This document shows positions 3,401 through 35,637 of a DNA stretch of 64,000 nt, piece after piece. This DNA comes from Mucilaginibacter tundrae (lineage in GTDB: Bacteria; Bacteroidota; Bacteroidia; Sphingobacteriales; Sphingobacteriaceae), in assembly GCF_013408825.1 (NCBI RefSeq), contig NZ_JACCBZ010000002.1, positions 496,001 through 560,000 of the forward strand, read 5' to 3'. The notes beneath the pieces were generated by a model that made no database searches, had not been told where the DNA came from, and saw only the letters and a program-made list of their open reading frames with translations. How positions within the stretch are numbered: position 1 is the first letter of the stretch; each line of letters opens with the position of its first letter. The position numbers and the translations under genes were made by a program.

Positions 3401-3941
3401 CTACACATCAATTCTCAATTCTGAGAACACATCTGATCTTAAGTTCTTAGGTTCGGCCGTCCCGACGTTTTTTGGAAGTGTTATAAATACTTTTTCTTAT
3501 AAGAATTTCGAGTTGTCTTTTAACATCATTTACAAGTTCGGCTATTATTTTAGACGAACATCTGTGAACTATACGCAGTTGTTTGCAGGGAATTATATGC
3601 AGGCTGACTATTCAGAGCGCTGGCAAAAGCCAGGTGACGAACTGAAAACTAATGTGCCTGCTATAGTCTACCCGGCTGATGCAAACAGTGATGAGTTTTA
3701 TCGTCTCTCTTCCGTGCTTGTGGACAAAGGAGATAACATAAGGTTCCAGGATTTTAAATTAGGTTATACATTCCAAAAAAGTAGCTTTCAACATTTTCCC
3801 TTTAATAGCTTGAGTATTTACTTCTATGCGAGTAACCTCGGCCTTATTTGGCGCGCGAACAAAGATCATTTAGACCCGGACGCGATATCGGGCTATCCTA
3901 CACCCAAAACTATTGAATTCGGTTTAAGTAGTAATTTCTAA
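417..3941 (+). CDS. SusC/RagA-family TonB-linked outer membrane receptor with STN domain
   Basis: This 1174-residue protein is a TonB-dependent outer membrane transporter of the SusC/RagA class. It forms the barrel under a SusD lid and imports glycans, peptides or other ligands. A signal segment (about residues 13-32) is followed by an STN domain (about 45-100, starting ISIDVEKKTLKETLDQIS), a carboxypeptidase-regulatory-like beta domain (about 135-210), a plug (about 215-330, VAVVSTGYQTIPKERATGSF) and a long beta barrel ending in a terminal Phe. The STN domain is the signalling module that contacts FecR in the periplasm, and a FecR tail lies just upstream, so transport and transcription are probably linked here. 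SusD starts 12 bases downstream. The substrate cannot be read from the sequence, and no glycoside hydrolase gene sits nearby. Sequence appears more AT-rich than the later housekeeping genes. Confidence 0.95.
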   Translation: MLKNLRSRFRYKYFVLTVATTCFINCALATVIAKSQDLDKRISIDVEKKTLKETLDQISKQAHIGIIYSNAKGILKKSVTIHAKDQPVSIVLTELLSPLTLTYEIIGDQIVIKLDDTSVRPPSKVVPQKQKFPIKGKVTDVNGLALPGATIKIKDGAALATTDSNGEFQISNVADSTILQISFVGYLTKEIVIKNTNYITISLENGSNQLNEVAVVSTGYQTIPKERATGSFTIIDSTLLNRAPSSDLISRLNGVTNGLLVSSSTANNSGNPLGISIRGRSTLFSNTQPLIVIDNFPFEGDINTINPNDIQTVTLLKDAAAASIWGVRAGNGVIVITTKKGKVNKKPTITFNTNLTIGSKPDLYYQPQLSSSDYIDLEKYLYKQGYYDAESYDDYSLISPVVAILQKEGANQITDAQANQQINALKNIDVRKQESEYFYRKSEQQEYHLDVSGGGTNNTYFFSGGYDKNIANIVGNSGSRITLKASNTYSFLDNRLKLSSDINFSRSETDNTNAYGYTPLYPYEQIADSKGNPLPTLVAGGLRSSYTDTVGNGNLLDWKYRPLEELRNQNSTSKSDLTDYRILLGLNYKIFKPLTASLTYQYYNSNQNGQIDYNQQSFYTRNLINTVTQIDPTTGAITRPIPIGDVYSPSFNNGQTNYGRGQLNFNQAYGKNDINAIAGYEVRSESYQNNSSTLYGYFPATETNSLVDYITAFPSYYGPGATTIQLGNNTFQSSTTNRYISYYANASDMYDEKYIISASYRKDESNLFGVKANQKGVPLWSTGFAWNVNKESFFNFDWLSLLQLKATYGYNGNVNQTVSAYTTANESSRPSPLYGSSYATIINPPNDALRWERVKNINLGINFDTKNDRLSGSIEYYIKNGLDLIATSPIAPQTGVSTFTGNSADTHTNGIDLQINSKNLTGQFRWSTTGILDWVKDKVTDYKAPRGTNEDMLSGYLGLTPLADYPINSLFGFKWAGLDNTGAPQGYLNGVVSKDYTSILNSENTSDLKFLGSAVPTFFGSVINTFSYKNFELSFNIIYKFGYYFRRTSVNYTQLFAGNYMQADYSERWQKPGDELKTNVPAIVYPADANSDEFYRLSSVLVDKGDNIRFQDFKLGYTFQKSSFQHFPFNSLSIYFYASNLGLIWRANKDHLDPDAISGYPTPKTIEFGLSSNF

Positions 3942-3953
3942 TTTATAAATAAA

Positions 3954-5342
3954 ATGAAATCAAAAAATTATATCCTCTGCTTACTGTCGCTTTTAGTTAT
4001 GACAGCAGTAAGTTGTAAAAAGGGATTTTTGGACGCAAAACCAAGTTCAACAATCCTACAACCCCAAACCCTTGACGATTTTCAAAGCCTGCTCGAAAAT
4101 AATAATATTACCTATAGCCCCGCTTTGCCAACATTAGCCGGAGATGAATATGTCTACATAAGTTACCCGATATGGCAAAGCGCCAGGACCGCAACTGAAA
4201 GGAACTCTTATGTATGGGCTGTAAATCTGTTCAACGGAGAAACGTCAGGTGGAGATTGGAGCATTCCTTACCAGGCGATATTTTATTCGAACAATGTATT
4301 AGCCGGTCTTGATAAATTTCAGTCAGAAGGAAATGATTTATCACGGATAAAATTCATTAAGGGTTGGGCATTGTTTGCCAGAGCGTTTGCTTATTTTGAA
4401 CTCGTAAATAATTTCTCAACTGCCTACGACCCAAGCACGGCAAATGCAGATTTGGGGGTTCCAATTAAGCTAAACCCTTCCGTAGATGACATCCAGCCAA
4501 GGTCTTCGGTTCAGCATACCTACGATCAGATTTTATCGGACTTAAATGCGGCCACGCCATTATTGAGTGCCACGCTGCCATTAAATAACAGGGAACAGCC
4601 CTCACAAATCGCTGTACACGCATTGCTTGCACGCGTATACCTTAACATGAGGAAATATGATCTGGCAGAATCACAGGCTGACAGTACATTACATCTATAT
4701 AACACTTTAATTGACTACAATGCGGTAAGTACCACAAGCATCCAGCCTTTTTTAAAAACTAACGATGAATTGATATTTTACAAGTCGGCAAATACGAGCT
4801 ATGCCTCTGCTACAGTCTTCCATAACAGTTATACCAGGGTCAACCCCGCTCTTATTAATCTATATGATCACAATGATTTACGATTACAAATTTTTTATTC
4901 CTTACAACCTGACAGTTCAAACATTATGAAAGTTCAGTATGATGGGCTTACTACCTTGTATCCTTTTACAGGATTGGCCACGGATGAAGTTTACCTTATC
5001 AAAGCTGAATGTGCCGCAAGACGTAATGATGTCGGAACCGCCATGACCTATCTAAACGATTTGCTCATTAATAGGTACAGCACAAACACTTTTACAAGTG
5101 TGACAGCTTCAACTTCTACTGATGCTTTAAATAAAATATTGATTGAAAGACGAAAAGAGTTAGTTTGGAGAAACCTCCGGTGGTATGATATTAAGAGATT
5201 GAATAAGGAAGGTGAAAATATTACACTGACTCGTTTGCTTAACGGCCAGGTATATATGCTACCGCCTAATGATCCAAGGGATGTCTTTCCTATTCCCGAT
5301 AATGAAATATCTTCAAGCGGTATACAACAAAATGTCAGGTAG
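3954..5342 (+). CDS. SusD/RagB-family nutrient-binding outer membrane lipoprotein
   Basis: This 462-residue lipoprotein is the substrate-binding lid of the upstream SusC barrel. The N-terminus is a clear lipoprotein signal with the lipobox Cys at residue 21 (MTAVSCKKGF). The next segment, FLDAKPSSTILQPQTLDDFQ, is the usual SusD start. TPR-like repeats follow (ALLARVYLNMRKYDLAESQAD, then YLIKAECAARRNDVGTAMTYLNDL), with the family's C-terminal signature around ILIERRKELVWRNLRWYDIKRLN. It is translated 12 bases after susC and is followed at once by a thioredoxin-like gene. The length is slightly short for the family (about 500). The ligand is unknown. Confidence 0.95.
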   Translation: MKSKNYILCLLSLLVMTAVSCKKGFLDAKPSSTILQPQTLDDFQSLLENNNITYSPALPTLAGDEYVYISYPIWQSARTATERNSYVWAVNLFNGETSGGDWSIPYQAIFYSNNVLAGLDKFQSEGNDLSRIKFIKGWALFARAFAYFELVNNFSTAYDPSTANADLGVPIKLNPSVDDIQPRSSVQHTYDQILSDLNAATPLLSATLPLNNREQPSQIAVHALLARVYLNMRKYDLAESQADSTLHLYNTLIDYNAVSTTSIQPFLKTNDELIFYKSANTSYASATVFHNSYTRVNPALINLYDHNDLRLQIFYSLQPDSSNIMKVQYDGLTTLYPFTGLATDEVYLIKAECAARRNDVGTAMTYLNDLLINRYSTNTFTSVTASTSTDALNKILIERRKELVWRNLRWYDIKRLNKEGENITLTRLLNGQVYMLPPNDPRDVFPIPDNEISSSGIQQNVR

Positions 5343-31991: not shown

Positions 31992-32133
31992 GAGCGCAAA
32001 GGCCCGACGGAAAACCGGGCCGGGAGCAGGCCTTGCGGGCAGAAGGTTTTTTCCGTCCTGACTTTTTGGTTCTTTTGTGTCAAGACAAAAGAACTAGCCC
32101 CCGCGGCAATGAGCGGACGGAACATCTCATTTA
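31992..32133 (+). repeat. Structured ~130-base repeat, copy A
   Basis: First of three related copies in the same orientation. It contains GACGGAAAA pairing with TTTTCCGTC, an inner GGCC/GGCC pair, a GTTCTTTTG/CAAAAGAAC hairpin and a final CCGCGGCAATGAGCGG hairpin. A REP-like palindrome follows at 32141. It lies between the convergent patatin and AraC-family genes. Confidence 0.75.
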
Positions 32134-32140
32134 AACGAGA

Positions 32141-32230
32141 ATTTGTCATTCTGAGGAACGAAGAATCTTCTTCGTTTTGCAAGCGAACAATGCAGGTTCA
32201 GAAGATTCTTCGTTCCTCAGAATGACAAAT
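32141..32230. repeat. REP-like palindrome with perfect 30-base arms, TTGTCATTCTGA type
   Basis: Positions 32141-32170 and 32201-32230 are exact reverse complements around a 30-base core. The arms contain TTGTCATTCTGAGGAACG and AAGAATCTTC. It is the best preserved inverted repeat in the window. It lies at the 3' end of the minus-strand AraC gene, where it could act as a transcript end or stabiliser. Confidence 0.85.
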
Positions 32231-32256
32231 TATTTAGTCTGATCAAAGCAACACAA

Positions 32257-33177
32257 TCAATTAAACGACGCTCTAAACTCCAAAGGTGATAACTCAGTTT
32301 TCGTTTTAAACAACTTGCTAAACGATTGCGGATGCTCAAACCCCAACTCATAAGCAATCTCGCTAACTGATAAACTGGTGGTAGATAACTTCTCTTTCGC
32401 TTTATCAATCAACTTATCGTGTATATGCTGTTGGGTGCTTTGGCCCGTCAGCATTTTAAGCGATCCACTTAAATAACTTGGCGATATATTTAATGTATCC
32501 GCGATGTATTGTACCGTAGGCAAACCTCTCTTCAATAAATTATCGCTGTTGAAATATTCGGTCAAAATTTGTTCCAGTCGATCAAGTATTTGATGATTAG
32601 CTATTTTGCGGGTGATGAATTGTCGCTGGTAAAAGCGCTCCGCATAAGAAAGGAGTAATTCCAACTGCGCGATGATGATCGTCTGGCTAAACTTATCAAT
32701 GTTCGACTTATACTCCTGCTCCATACTCTGCATCATGCCAATAATCGTCGCCTCTTCTTTATCCGACAAAAACAAGGCCTCATGCACCGAATAGCTAAAA
32801 AACTCGTACTGTTTAATGGTTTTGGCAAACGGCGTATTCCACAAAAAATCAGGATGGATGAGCAGCAGCCACCCCGAATGCTTTAAATGTGTGCCTTTAT
32901 CAATCTCCATCCCAAATACCTGCCCCGGCGAAATAAAGAACATGATCCCCTCATCAAAGTCATACACCTGCTGCCCATATTTCATTTTACCGTTAAAATT
33001 CCGCTTCAGCGAGATGGAATAAAAATCAAACATAATGTTGATCGATTCATCCATCGGCAATCGCTTGATCAGGTCAAAATCGATCACGCTGATCAGCGGG
33101 TGCTCCGGTTTCGGCAGCCCCATGATCTGGTGATATTCGCTGATGGTTTTGATCCGGAGAGGTTGCGTATTTGCCAT
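32257..33177 (-). CDS. AraC-family transcriptional regulator
   Basis: This 306-residue DNA-binding regulator has a C-terminal pair of helix-turn-helix motifs (about residues 215-300): VQYIADTLNISPSYLSGSLK, then VSEIAYELGFEHPQSFSKLFK ending TELSPLEFRASF. The N-terminal 180 residues form a cupin-like ligand domain (FISPGQVFGMEIDKGTHLKHSGW). It lies 12 bases after the NmrA-like gene on the same strand and is probably co-transcribed with it. It may control that gene or the nearby hydrolase. The effector is unknown. Confidence 0.93.
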   Translation of the reverse strand: MANTQPLRIKTISEYHQIMGLPKPEHPLISVIDFDLIKRLPMDESINIMFDFYSISLKRNFNGKMKYGQQVYDFDEGIMFFISPGQVFGMEIDKGTHLKHSGWLLLIHPDFLWNTPFAKTIKQYEFFSYSVHEALFLSDKEEATIIGMMQSMEQEYKSNIDKFSQTIIIAQLELLLSYAERFYQRQFITRKIANHQILDRLEQILTEYFNSDNLLKRGLPTVQYIADTLNISPSYLSGSLKMLTGQSTQQHIHDKLIDKAKEKLSTTSLSVSEIAYELGFEHPQSFSKLFKTKTELSPLEFRASFN

Positions 33178-33189
33178 GATCCAATATAG

Positions 33190-34080
33190 TTATTTTTGAT
33201 GGTAGATAGTCGCGAATTCTTTCGCGTAATCCGCCATTTTCACTTTACCCATCACTTTAGGCCAATGGCGGTAAAAATCTTCAGCCAAAGTACCATTATG
33301 CTGAGCCGAAAACATCTCCACTAATCCATGCGCCATAGCTGTACTTAAACCAAAGGATTCCAGTTGTTGCTGCCTTTCCTCGTCCGATACCAATACCCAT
33401 TTTAAATCAGGCTTACCGATCGCCTCACCCAAAATACGAGCGGTTTCATTACCTGTAAGTTCATCGCTTGCCACATAACGTACTTTGTGACCTGTAGCAG
33501 GCGTTTCCAGCTCCTCAGCCACAGCCGATGCGATATCGACAGGTGCAACCCAAATCAGCATATCGTCCGCGCCATAATTCGCCACAATTACACCGGCAGC
33601 CTTTATCCCCGGTATAAAACCCAGCAGGTTATAATAAAATCCCGACGGTCTCATATAAGTGATCGCTACATCCGGAAGCTCTTTTTCAAAAATATCTTCC
33701 ACCTGTCTGTGCGCCAGGATCAATCCCGAACCTTTCTCCATATGGGCCCCGATGCTGCTCAAATGCACCACCCGCTTAACCCCCGATTTTTCAATTGCCT
33801 CGGCAAAGTTTTCACCCGTTTCACGACAGTAAGCCATCATATCCGGGGCCGCGTAATTAGGCGGCACCAAGGTATATACCGCATCCGCGCCGGTAAAGGT
33901 ATCTGTCAAAAAATCAACATCGGCAAGCGTACCTATAGCTGCTTTGGCACCCAATGTCTCAATTTCTTTTTTCTTGTCGGGATTACTGCTAACAACCGTA
34001 ACCGCATGCCCTTTAGCCAGTAATTTTTCTGTTAATGGCTTGCTAATGTGTCCTAATGAACCTGTTACTATGATCTTCAT
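33190..34080 (-). CDS. NmrA/NAD(P)-binding atypical SDR-family protein
   Basis: This 296-residue protein has an N-terminal Rossmann fold with the atypical nucleotide motif VTGSLGHISKPL (residues 5-16), VVSSNPDKKKE and a mid-chain VVHLSSIGAHMEKGSGL. This matches NmrA-like and quinone-oxidoreductase-2-like proteins that bind NADP and may sense redox state or reduce quinones. The ATG at 34080 is preceded by an AAGAAAA-type purine stretch. A longer frame from 34128 lacks family likeness. It is the first gene of an operon with an AraC regulator. Confidence 0.88.
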   Translation of the reverse strand: MKIIVTGSLGHISKPLTEKLLAKGHAVTVVSSNPDKKKEIETLGAKAAIGTLADVDFLTDTFTGADAVYTLVPPNYAAPDMMAYCRETGENFAEAIEKSGVKRVVHLSSIGAHMEKGSGLILAHRQVEDIFEKELPDVAITYMRPSGFYYNLLGFIPGIKAAGVIVANYGADDMLIWVAPVDIASAVAEELETPATGHKVRYVASDELTGNETARILGEAIGKPDLKWVLVSDEERQQQLESFGLSTAMAHGLVEMFSAQHNGTLAEDFYRHWPKVMGKVKMADYAKEFATIYHQK

Positions 34081-34219
34081 TTTTCTTTTGGTTTGATGAC
34101 ACAAAGTTGCACACAACCAAAAGGCCAAACGTAGCCGAATCGACTATTGTTGTAGCCAAAAACATTGCCATCGAAGCATACTTCTTTCTATTAGTGTGGC
34201 AGGTGAATGAGAAAACAAT

Positions 34220-34349
34220 GTGCGCAAAAGCCTGACAGAAAACCGGGCCAGGTTCTGGGCAGTGGGCAGAAGGTTTTTTCTGTCTTGATTTTTTGCTACC
34301 TTTTTATCAAGAAAAAAGTAGTAGCCTCCGCGGCAATGAGCGGGACAGA
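34220..34349 (+). repeat. Structured ~130-base repeat, copy B
   Basis: The copy has drifted, but the outer stem is preserved by paired changes: GACAGAAAA with TTTTCTGTC instead of GACGGAAAA with TTTTCCGTC. The CCGCGGCAATGAGCGG hairpin is identical to the other copies. It lies between the divergent NmrA-like and hydrolase genes. Confidence 0.7.
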
Positions 34350-34581
34350 ATATCTTGGCTAACGAGAATTACTTTGCGAAGCAACCAATAGAAAATTTCT
34401 CTTATTGCCATTTATACATCTGCATTTGCATGCGGTAACCAACGTTTGTTAATAATCGATCTATTTTTTTGACGGTATGATATTTATATATCAACTTTTT
34501 ATTTCCTAATTTTAGGTTTCCTCCCCTAAACTATTCGAAAGAAAAATAAAAACACATTTATCATTCAAAAATCACACACCT
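34350..34581. other. Upstream region of the hydrolase gene
   Basis: This AT-rich stretch between repeat copy B and the hydrolase start holds no ORF of note. A TTTTTGACGG at about 34465 and a palindromic GATATTTATATATC follow it, and a TAATTTTAGG lies nearer the gene. None is a convincing Bacteroidota promoter. Confidence 0.3.
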
Positions 34582-35403
34582 ATGAGCACAATTAAAGTAA
34601 AAGACGGAACAGAGATTTATTATAAAGACTGGGGAACCGGGCAACCAATTGTTTTCCATCACGGCTGGCCATTATCTGGTGACGACTGGGACGCGCAAAT
34701 GATGTTTTTCCTGCAGCATGGTTACCGGGTTATCGCCCATGACCGCCGGGGACATGGAAGGTCGGGCCAGGCATCCGAAGGCCACGACATGGACACCTAC
34801 GCGTCTGATGTTGCCGAGCTTACTACATTCCTTAATTTGAAAGATGCCATCCATATCGGCCACTCCACAGGCGGTGGCGAGGTTATCCATTATGCCGCTA
34901 AATACGGCAAAGGCCGTGTTGCTAAGGCGGTGCTGATTAGCGCAGTTACACCGATCATGGTGCAATCCGCTACTAATCCGGATGGTGTTCCAATGTCGGT
35001 TTTCGATGAGATCCGTGAGGGAACTTCCTTCAACAGGGCGCAATATTATGAGGATTTCACTATCCCTTTTTATGGCTATAACCGCGAGGGTGCAAAAATA
35101 TCAGTAGGTATCAGAAAAAACTGGTGGCGCCAGGGAATGATGGGTGGTGTAAAAGCACATGTTGAAGGGATCAAGGCTTTTTCGGAAACAGATTTTACAG
35201 AAGACCTGAAAAGCTTAGATATCCCCGTACTTGTTTTACATGGCGAAGATGATCAGATTGTTCCATTCCCTATTTCGGGGGCAAAGTCAGTAAAACTACT
35301 AAAAAACGGCAAACTGATTTCCTATCCGGGTTTTCCTCACGGGATGCCCGCCACCGAGGCTGCAACCATAAATAAGGATCTACTAGAGTTTATTAAATCA
35401 TAA
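34582..35403 (+). CDS. Alpha/beta hydrolase, non-haem chloroperoxidase-like
   Basis: This 273-residue hydrolase has the nucleophile Ser95 in GHSTGGGEV, an acid in HGEDDQIVPF and the catalytic His in FPHGMP. The start VKDGTEIYYKDWGTGQPIVF and the HDRRGHGRS block are typical of the cofactor-free haloperoxidase/esterase subgroup. Members hydrolyse esters and can form peracids; the haloperoxidase activity is often a side reaction. There is no signal peptide. It lies beside the NmrA/AraC operon, divergently. A strong terminator follows. Confidence 0.93.
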   Translation: MSTIKVKDGTEIYYKDWGTGQPIVFHHGWPLSGDDWDAQMMFFLQHGYRVIAHDRRGHGRSGQASEGHDMDTYASDVAELTTFLNLKDAIHIGHSTGGGEVIHYAAKYGKGRVAKAVLISAVTPIMVQSATNPDGVPMSVFDEIREGTSFNRAQYYEDFTIPFYGYNREGAKISVGIRKNWWRQGMMGGVKAHVEGIKAFSETDFTEDLKSLDIPVLVLHGEDDQIVPFPISGAKSVKLLKNGKLISYPGFPHGMPATEAATINKDLLEFIKS

Positions 35404-35430
35404 AATCTTTCTCATAATACCTTTAAATAG

Positions 35431-35465
35431 AAAAGCTGTCGCTATGAATGAGCGGCAGCTTTTTT
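35431..35465 (+). terminator. Terminator of the hydrolase gene
   Basis: AAAAGCTGTCGCT pairs with AGCGGCAGCTTTT (one G-T pair) around a seven-base loop, then a T run. It starts 28 bases after the stop codon. Confidence 0.88.
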
Positions 35466-35504
35466 GTTTAGCTGTTATTCTCCTCTAATATTTGAAATGA
35501 TACC

Positions 35505-35637
35505 GAGCGCAAACGTCCGACGGAAAACCGGGCCGGGAGCTGGCCCAGCGGGCAGAAGGTTTTTTCCGTCTTGATTTTTTGCTGCCTTTTTTATCAAGAA
35601 AAAAGTAGTAGCCCCCGCGGCAATGAGCGGAACAGAA
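35505..35637 (+). repeat. Structured ~130-base repeat, copy C
   Basis: Near-identical to copy A in its first 70 bases. It has the GACGGAAAA/TTTTCCGTC outer stem, an inner GGGCC/GGCCC stem and a CTTTTTT/AAAAAAG hairpin with different bases from copy A. A decayed REP-like palindrome follows (35660-35733, AGGAACGAAGCATCTAT). It lies between the convergent hydrolase and dnaE genes. Confidence 0.75.

Follow-up and report, generated by a model that had tools for sequence, protein, structure and literature searches.

Structured repeats in a Mucilaginibacter tundrae locus

A 64,000-nt stretch of Mucilaginibacter tundrae DNA (contig NZ_JACCBZ010000002.1, positions 496,001-560,000, forward strand; hereafter the window) holds three copies of a structured repeat element, each of about 125 bases and all on the plus strand. 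An earlier note on this DNA had pointed to these copies, and our analysis bears it out. Copy A (31992-32116) is flanked by a patatin-like gene and a gene for an AraC-type regulator, whose 3' ends both face it. An NmrA-like gene and an alpha/beta hydrolase gene start on either side of copy B (34220-34343), and copy C (35505-35630) has on one side the 3' end of the hydrolase gene and on the other that of a gene that we take, from its sequence, to be dnaE-like. No transposase is found among the open reading frames (ORFs) around the copies or the four ORFs that we scanned with Pfam, in agreement with the note. Comparing the copies with their relatives makes it nearly certain that the element is a genuine repeat family with a selected fold; a pairing between a loop and a strand upstream of it, a long form, paired forms and a phylum-wide spread go beyond what the note had described.

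Copies A, B and C are short forms with a common order: an outer stem, P1 (GACNGAAAACC/GGTTTTTTCNGTC); a small inner domain; a CTTGAN strand (S1), TTTTTG and an A/T hairpin (S2); and a last hairpin, CCGC-GGCAATGA-GCGG (32101-32116, 34328-34343 and 35615-35630). When the arms are aligned, P1 reads GACGGAAAACC/GGTTTTTTCCGTC in copy A (32006-32016 and 32045-32057) and in copy C (35519-35570, arms 35519-35529 and 35558-35570) versus GACAGAAAACC/GGTTTTTTCTGTC in copy B (34234-34284, arms 34234-34244 and 34272-34284); the two arms have changed together, as the note had recognized. It was equally right about the A/T hairpin, which differs in both arms and still pairs: GTTCTTTTG/CAAAAGAAC in copy A (the hairpin GTTCTTTTG-TGTCAAGA-CAAAAGAAC spans 32069-32094) versus CTTTTT(T)/AAAAAAG in copy B (34300-34305 and 34312-34318) and copy C (35586-35592 and 35599-35605). 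The CCGCGGCAATGAGCGG hairpin, described there as constant, is so in A, B and C, but its two outer pairs vary, partly with compensation, among 77 copies from the genus.

The bases of the S2 loop (N'TCAAG) complement those of the CTTGAN strand a short way upstream. In copy B the S1 strand CTTGAT (34284-34289) matches the loop ATCAAG (34306-34311) perfectly within a domain at 34284-34318, and copy C has the same perfect match (CTTGAT at 35570-35575, ATCAAG at 35593-35598, domain 35570-35605). Copy A carries CCTGAC (32057-32062; consensus CTTGAC) opposite GTCAAG in the loop at 32078-32085, with one mismatch. Because the S1 and S2 helices cannot nest together, the S1/S2 module is predicted either to form a pseudoknot or to switch between two alternative hairpins.

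A family across the genus and the phylum

Searching the M. tundrae genome with copy A returned 29 matches at E<=0.001, some of them fragments of one copy; the best non-self match (E 1.9e-51) is far beyond chance. We then used a core covariance model, built without the pseudoknot and run with strict filters that leave its E-values rough. This search, of a kind that the note had envisaged, gave 24 matches in the own genome and detected the element in 90 of the 92 Mucilaginibacter genomes, with 0 to 53 matches per genome (the best 53 candidates were scored at most). It also recovered the element from 75 of 296 genomes sampled across Bacteroidota, four of the 75 belonging to the own genus. The family may well be an old, non-coding, interspersed and structured component of Bacteroidota genomes.

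No family in Rfam release 15 reached its gathering score on the window or on 43 loci (14 from the genus). One overlap below the cut-off was at chance level (Va-907 on the distant copy of locus L081, 17.8 of the 45 bits needed, E 0.71). Other weak matches, to eukaryotic microRNA models, were false and fell on a palindrome neighboring copy A. Directly after copy A, window positions 32140-32231 carry a perfect 32-base inverted repeat (AATTTGTCATTCTGAGGAACGAAGAATCTTCT), and similar palindromes are numerous in the genome. Plasmid and phage collections gave no DNA match to copy A. Four sequence patterns matched 2, 3, 10 and 3 stretches among IMG/VR contigs, of which we examined L088 and L089; the copies on these virus-like contigs (L089:2320-2510 and 3874-4085; L088:18-96) lie near genes that look by eye, with no search, like phage portal and terminase genes. 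Open-access text searches turned up no description of the element.

Paired changes maintain the fold

Taken alone, copy A folds weakly, only slightly better than shuffled sequences on either strand (z -1.47), and the case therefore rests on comparing copies. We aligned 77 different core copies from the genus by sequence alone, leaving out five rows of a sister repeat family. This sister family has a similar T-rich hairpin (TTTGGTTACTTTC..GAAAGTAAC) without the S1 pairing (L017:2797, L060:1774, L076:1661, L079:2317 and L101:1198). Across the 77 copies 94.2% of cells pair, and 61 cells have changed on both sides versus 13.6 in shuffles. The covariation score is 0.164, compared with 0.074 in shuffles (sd 0.005; 0 of 500 as high) and 0.036-0.055 in controls in which the pairing was slid. 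At the variable S1 pair, U-A occurs 37 times, A-U 14 and C-G 13, with 9 copies unpaired, and loops match their own upstream strand better than those of other copies (404 versus 363, sd 6.4; 0 of 2000 permutations).

Covarying cells are not independent events because the copies are related, a concern that the slid control and orthologous pairs address. In the relative G009, the orthologue of copy B pairs CTTGAA with TTCAAG where copy B pairs CTTGAT with ATCAAG, and it has paired S2 changes as well, in surrounding sequence that is 81-83% identical; in the orthologue of copy C, also in G009, S1 carries a single mismatch. A very unlikely alternative is that the paired changes arise from copying and gene conversion between a small number of repeat types, with no selection on the fold. 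Related copies do have changes in common, two of the G009 copies are of one type, and shuffling leaves relatedness in. Yet the slid controls, which keep relatedness, fall to 0.036-0.055; at a single position the genus has three pair types and the distant copies have two that are common; and the module persists where the remainder can no longer be aligned.

Distant copies keep the order of outer stem, variable domain and CTTGAN module, the rest not being shared. Their P1 base follows GRC...GYC, with GGC/GCC in 10 copies, GAC/GTC in 5 and no mixed combination, among the 15 of 51 copies in which both motifs were found. Of the 43 distant copies that were parsed, 37 retain the variable S1 pair, versus a shuffled mean of 24.6 (0 of 5000); 6 of the 51 could not be parsed and 2 of the remainder were duplicates. 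Of 159 unique cores, 131 have at least five S1 Watson-Crick pairs and 119 at least six, counts that come without a null. P1 scores exceeded all 30 shuffles in 52 of the 143 cores with enough upstream sequence (mean z 2.35), and P1 is therefore convincing by pattern and covariation, not copy by copy.

Long forms of about 245 bases, present in relatives and in a few copies of the own genome, add further covarying helices. Aligning 22 of 31 extracted fragments (the other nine, which had an odd length or a wrong partner, were dropped), RNAalifold predicted 53 pairs, 21 of them with double-sided changes, and a covariation energy term that is small (-2.17 of -44.18 kcal/mol). One P1 pair is GC in 11 forms, AU in 8 and CG in 2; P2 shows GC 10 and AU 10, and P3 shows CG 10 and GC 7. 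Double-sided changes also fall in S2 and the last hairpin. The earlier note had held that folding is kept by selection or by a copying mechanism; in keeping with this, the further genus, long-form and distant copies show paired rather than random changes. As the sequence changes while the knotted fold is kept, the fold itself seems to be the object of selection.

RNA or single-stranded DNA

The foremost rival to a mobile DNA element is a multi-copy structured RNA, in which the element would be transcribed and the RNA fold selected, for instance as a regulatory, protein-binding or self-propagating RNA. We regard this as possible though doubtful; a small RNA had been among the note's suggestions. 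It agrees with the significant covariation, in that genus core copies and long forms carry double-sided changes, and with internal-loop motifs that by eye recur in distant relatives (GRCCTYA/CAGYC, GTTAAGAAA/TTTTTAGC and TGTYTGA-GC/GC-GAGTT). Module geometry may also point this way. On the plus strand only 0-1 base links the S1-pairing loop to the second S2 arm, which is tight; the minus-strand module, with a 10-bp stem, a 1-nt loop, a 6-bp stem and a third loop that is A-rich, has lengths that would fit a classical H-type pseudoknot. In one distant genome (G201), four units lie between two genes, presumably cysD and cysN from their sequence, and run in the same direction as the genes.

Against a structured RNA stand the weak single-copy folds, the lack of any Rfam family at cut-off and a gene context without fixed direction. 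Departures from pairing, in which G-T and A-C differ by strand, point clearly to neither strand: they are about equal in the core (18 versus 21) and tilt the opposite way in P1 (27 versus 45), in counts made without a completed positive control. The 77 G-T versus 17 A-C departures in S2 are inflated because a flanking G-T is fixed.

One hint comes from an IS1595-family insertion sequence (IS; DDE_Tnp_IS1595, E 1.4e-42; ends GGAGAYTATATACNTGTTAG). Two genomes have four sites between them at which it occupies precisely the S2 loop (L019:1501-1558 with L029:1501-1525; L086:3184 and about 7228; L024:1501-1540; L025:1501-1540, the last also in L014). Both ends were read at two of these sites, and there the eight loop bases are duplicated (TGTCAAGA and TATCAAGA). 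This placement hints at a DNA hairpin, and a sequence preference would explain it equally well.

Units occur singly, as inverted pairs and in tandem

In many relatives two units stand head to head with their last hairpins outward. Such an inverted pair spans 422-465 bases in 5 of the 9 stretches that we fetched from G042, and these pairs have terminal inverted repeats, which solitary A, B and C lack. Elsewhere units are in tandem, spaced about 220-465 bases, with four in G201, five in G315 and four in G030. The order copy A, gene, copy B, gene, copy C might recall integron gene cassettes; we dropped this reading, since tandem arrays in L221, L234 and L081 have no genes between units (no search for attC core sites was made). 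Separately, loci L011 and L012 (G000 C8:178699-179135) hold two copies at a distance of 288 bases; their flanks are alike, as if the element had been duplicated in tandem together with its flank.

Context and turnover

Among 78 copies placed with a simple ORF caller, flanking genes were convergent at 24, codirectional at 40 and divergent at 10, with one neighbor missing at 4; four of the 78 were flagged as overlapping a long ORF. The note had suggested an RNA element of transcript ends. Because flanking genes lie in all orientations, this finds no support, and we reject a transcript-end or leader element alike: the copies are distributed as expected of a tolerated intergenic repeat, and not as leaders or terminators would be.

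Copies come and go between relatives. Copies B and C are shared with G009, B with compensated changes and C beside the same gene end, and copy A has no match in the orthologous patatin-AraC gap of G009, which also carries another gene. Among the stretches that we fetched, the place of copy B had no match in four relatives with the AraC-NmrA block, nor had that of copy C in 15 other genus genomes with the dnaE-like end. Rechecking L110-L129 with wider profiles gave one weak partial match, outside the copy-B gap (L112:3936-3970, E 0.035-0.054). One G009 copy lacks a counterpart at the orthologous site in G000. In G084, alike copies have a common 5' edge (GAGCGGTGGCC or similar) and a common 3' edge (GAGCGGCCAATG) while their flanks differ; three of the eleven also have flanking repeats in common. 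The mobile-element component of the note's proposal fits this picture of 0 to 53 matches per genus genome, presence and absence at given sites, and inverted pairs.

A proposed mobile element read through its fold

We consider it plausible, at about an even chance, that the element moves as folded single-stranded DNA and is non-autonomous, resembling repetitive extragenic palindromes (REPs) or miniature inverted-repeat transposable elements (MITEs), and that an enzyme acting in trans moves it. The unit comprises the P1 outer stem, a variable folded domain and the 3' module that pairs CTTGAN with the next hairpin's loop N'TCAAG, followed in Mucilaginibacter by the GC hairpin. For such spread, the enzyme would recognize the single strand in its folded state, exposed during replication or transcription. 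Arms may then drift only together because recognition would need the fold, and gene conversion between copies may homogenize them. Mobility is supported by the range of copy numbers, the empty site, the unmatched gaps, alike copies with different flanks and the inverted pairs.

Several observations weigh against movement as folded DNA. Single copies fold weakly, and the G-T and A-C counts do not single out a strand. The empty G000 site is not clean to the base, the difference taking in flanking palindromes. Target duplications were not seen by eye at the eleven alike G084 copies; the note had considered fixed target duplications together with free variation as the sign of a mere mobile element, and the variation that we find is paired. 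Only one of three G084 pairs has its last hairpins outward (497 bases), the other two being opposite (L244 and L247). The phylum-wide internal-loop motifs are what would be expected of an RNA, and the order is conserved over distances that are long for a purely selfish repeat. Nor did a mobilizing enzyme emerge among the loci examined.

We compared reading frames at 140 element loci. The sole frame common to more than five of them was the element's own overlapping frame, present at 91 (182 of the 204 members of its cluster overlap the core match). An autonomous parent with a gene inside or beside it was sought and not found in the 140 loci; the other frame clusters, at no more than five loci each, are orthologous or housekeeping-like neighbors or the IS1595 transposase. 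The IS1595-family IS is the only transposase common to several of these loci and its ends differ from the element's, there having been no genome-wide search for a same-ended IS. HEARO/omega RNAs, the structured RNAs of IscB and TnpB, have pseudoknots and also occur as orphan copies, much like the element. Unlike them, the element has no Rfam match, and the frame comparison showed no large cluster beside the copies, though no dedicated search for IscB or TnpB genes was made.

REP-associated tyrosine transposases (RAYTs) are, with reverse transcriptases, the usual motors of such repeats, and the element could be a classical REP or REPIN (REP doublet forming a hairpin) mobilized by a Bacteroidetes-subclass RAYT (TnpA-REP). 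It is palindromic and intergenic with inverted pairs, RAYT-like genes occur in 66 of 76 genus genomes, and the available excerpt of PMC6006769 describes RAYTs of this subclass as flanked by 'atypical secondary structures'. The loci themselves make this unlikely. Each of the four RAYT-like Y1 genes of the own genome that we examined (L031-L034) is flanked, by eye, by a different palindrome of its own; this genome appears to hold several REP systems, and the element copy at L013 lies about 0.9 kb from the RAYT of L032. Taking best matches throughout, we found the element near 2 of 50 genus RAYT loci and on both sides of none, and at none of the best 30 Y1 loci from 30 element-rich genomes, two of which (G078 and G354) have no Y1 match. 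With the same two profiles, 26 of 26 known distant loci were recovered. RAYT number does not track element copy number across 76 genomes (Spearman 0.08, p 0.52), and the median number of element matches is 13.5 (maximum 46) in the ten genomes that lack a RAYT match but 8.5 in the 66 that have one.

Highly improbable is a retro-copied element, akin to a bacterial short interspersed element, whose conserved 3' module would be read by a reverse transcriptase. The 3' module is indeed the most conserved part, with 5' domains that differ among lineages. However, only 12 of the 30 element-rich genomes have an RVT_1 match; the 18 without one include G042 and G084 with their many alike copies, and none of 30 reverse-transcriptase loci in such genomes, again best matches, holds the element. 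Ownership by a RAYT or a reverse transcriptase is thus unsupported, no examined locus being flanked on both sides by the element. As a separate observation, in a distant genome a group II intron domain match from Rfam (L232:1152-1228) lies about 270 bases from an element on the opposite strand.

Relation to known repeats

As excerpts of PMC3733652 and PMC6006769 describe them, GTAG/CGTC-tagged REPs, bacterial interspersed mosaic elements (BIMEs) and REPINs resemble the element in being intergenic and palindromic, in their many copies, inverted dimers and varying copy number, and in that several unrelated families share a genome. Like REPs and REPINs, the element forms inverted dimers between genes. 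It differs, on the same excerpts, in size (125-250 bases versus 20-40) and in structure (an outer stem and a pseudoknot versus a single hairpin). Nor has it a constant GTAG/CGTC tag, the bases before the last hairpin being GTAG in copies B and C, CTAG in copy A, and ACAG and others in the 77-copy alignment; and, unlike the REPs of RAYTs, it does not flank both sides of any RAYT locus examined.

MITEs such as BrickBuilt of Porphyromonas gingivalis, in the excerpt seen of PMC4596501, are likewise non-coding and present in tens of copies in Bacteroidota, and the G042 inverted pairs with their inverted ends of about 65 bases are MITE-like on that description. Unlike MITEs, the element shows no target duplication by eye at the eleven G084 copies and no same-ended IS in the 140 loci, solitary half-units are common, and its fold is phylum-wide. 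In sum, the element works like a REP or a MITE; size, tag and owner gene set it apart from RAYT-associated REPs, and it shares the features of MITEs in part.

Among structured nucleic acids, the STAXI motif of Enterobacteriales (tandem pseudoknots near DNA-handling genes, as far as the excerpt of PMC2864571 goes) is also a repeated pseudoknot that may be either RNA or single-stranded DNA. The element, in comparison with that excerpt, belongs to another phylum, has another architecture, shows no association with a gene and has no Rfam match. Flavo-1, Bacteroidales-1, Bacteroides-1 and 6S-flavo (names in the excerpt of PMC2864571) are, like the element, candidate RNAs of the phylum from comparative genomics, and in the Rfam search none matched the element loci at E<=1. 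Nothing in the part of PMC9723704 that was available ties the Flavobacterium small RNA Rfp18 to the element.

Implications

Tentatively, the element could represent a phylum-wide class of gene-less mobile structured nucleic acid with the fold as its sole conserved feature. P1 and the 3' pseudoknot or switch would have been kept by compensatory change since early Bacteroidota, and an enzyme outside the known repeat systems would recognize them in RNA or in single-stranded DNA. In practical terms, it generates spurious small reading frames (the one common to 91 of 140 loci) and is a landing site for an IS1595-family insertion sequence. Such repeats are usually classed as REPs or MITEs and taken no further. 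Here the fold is conserved phylum-wide although sequence, length and copy number change, and at the loci examined neither RAYTs nor reverse transcriptases are flanking owners. This leaves a defined and testable question for Bacteroidota biology: which protein reads the element's pseudoknot, and whether it does so as DNA or as RNA.

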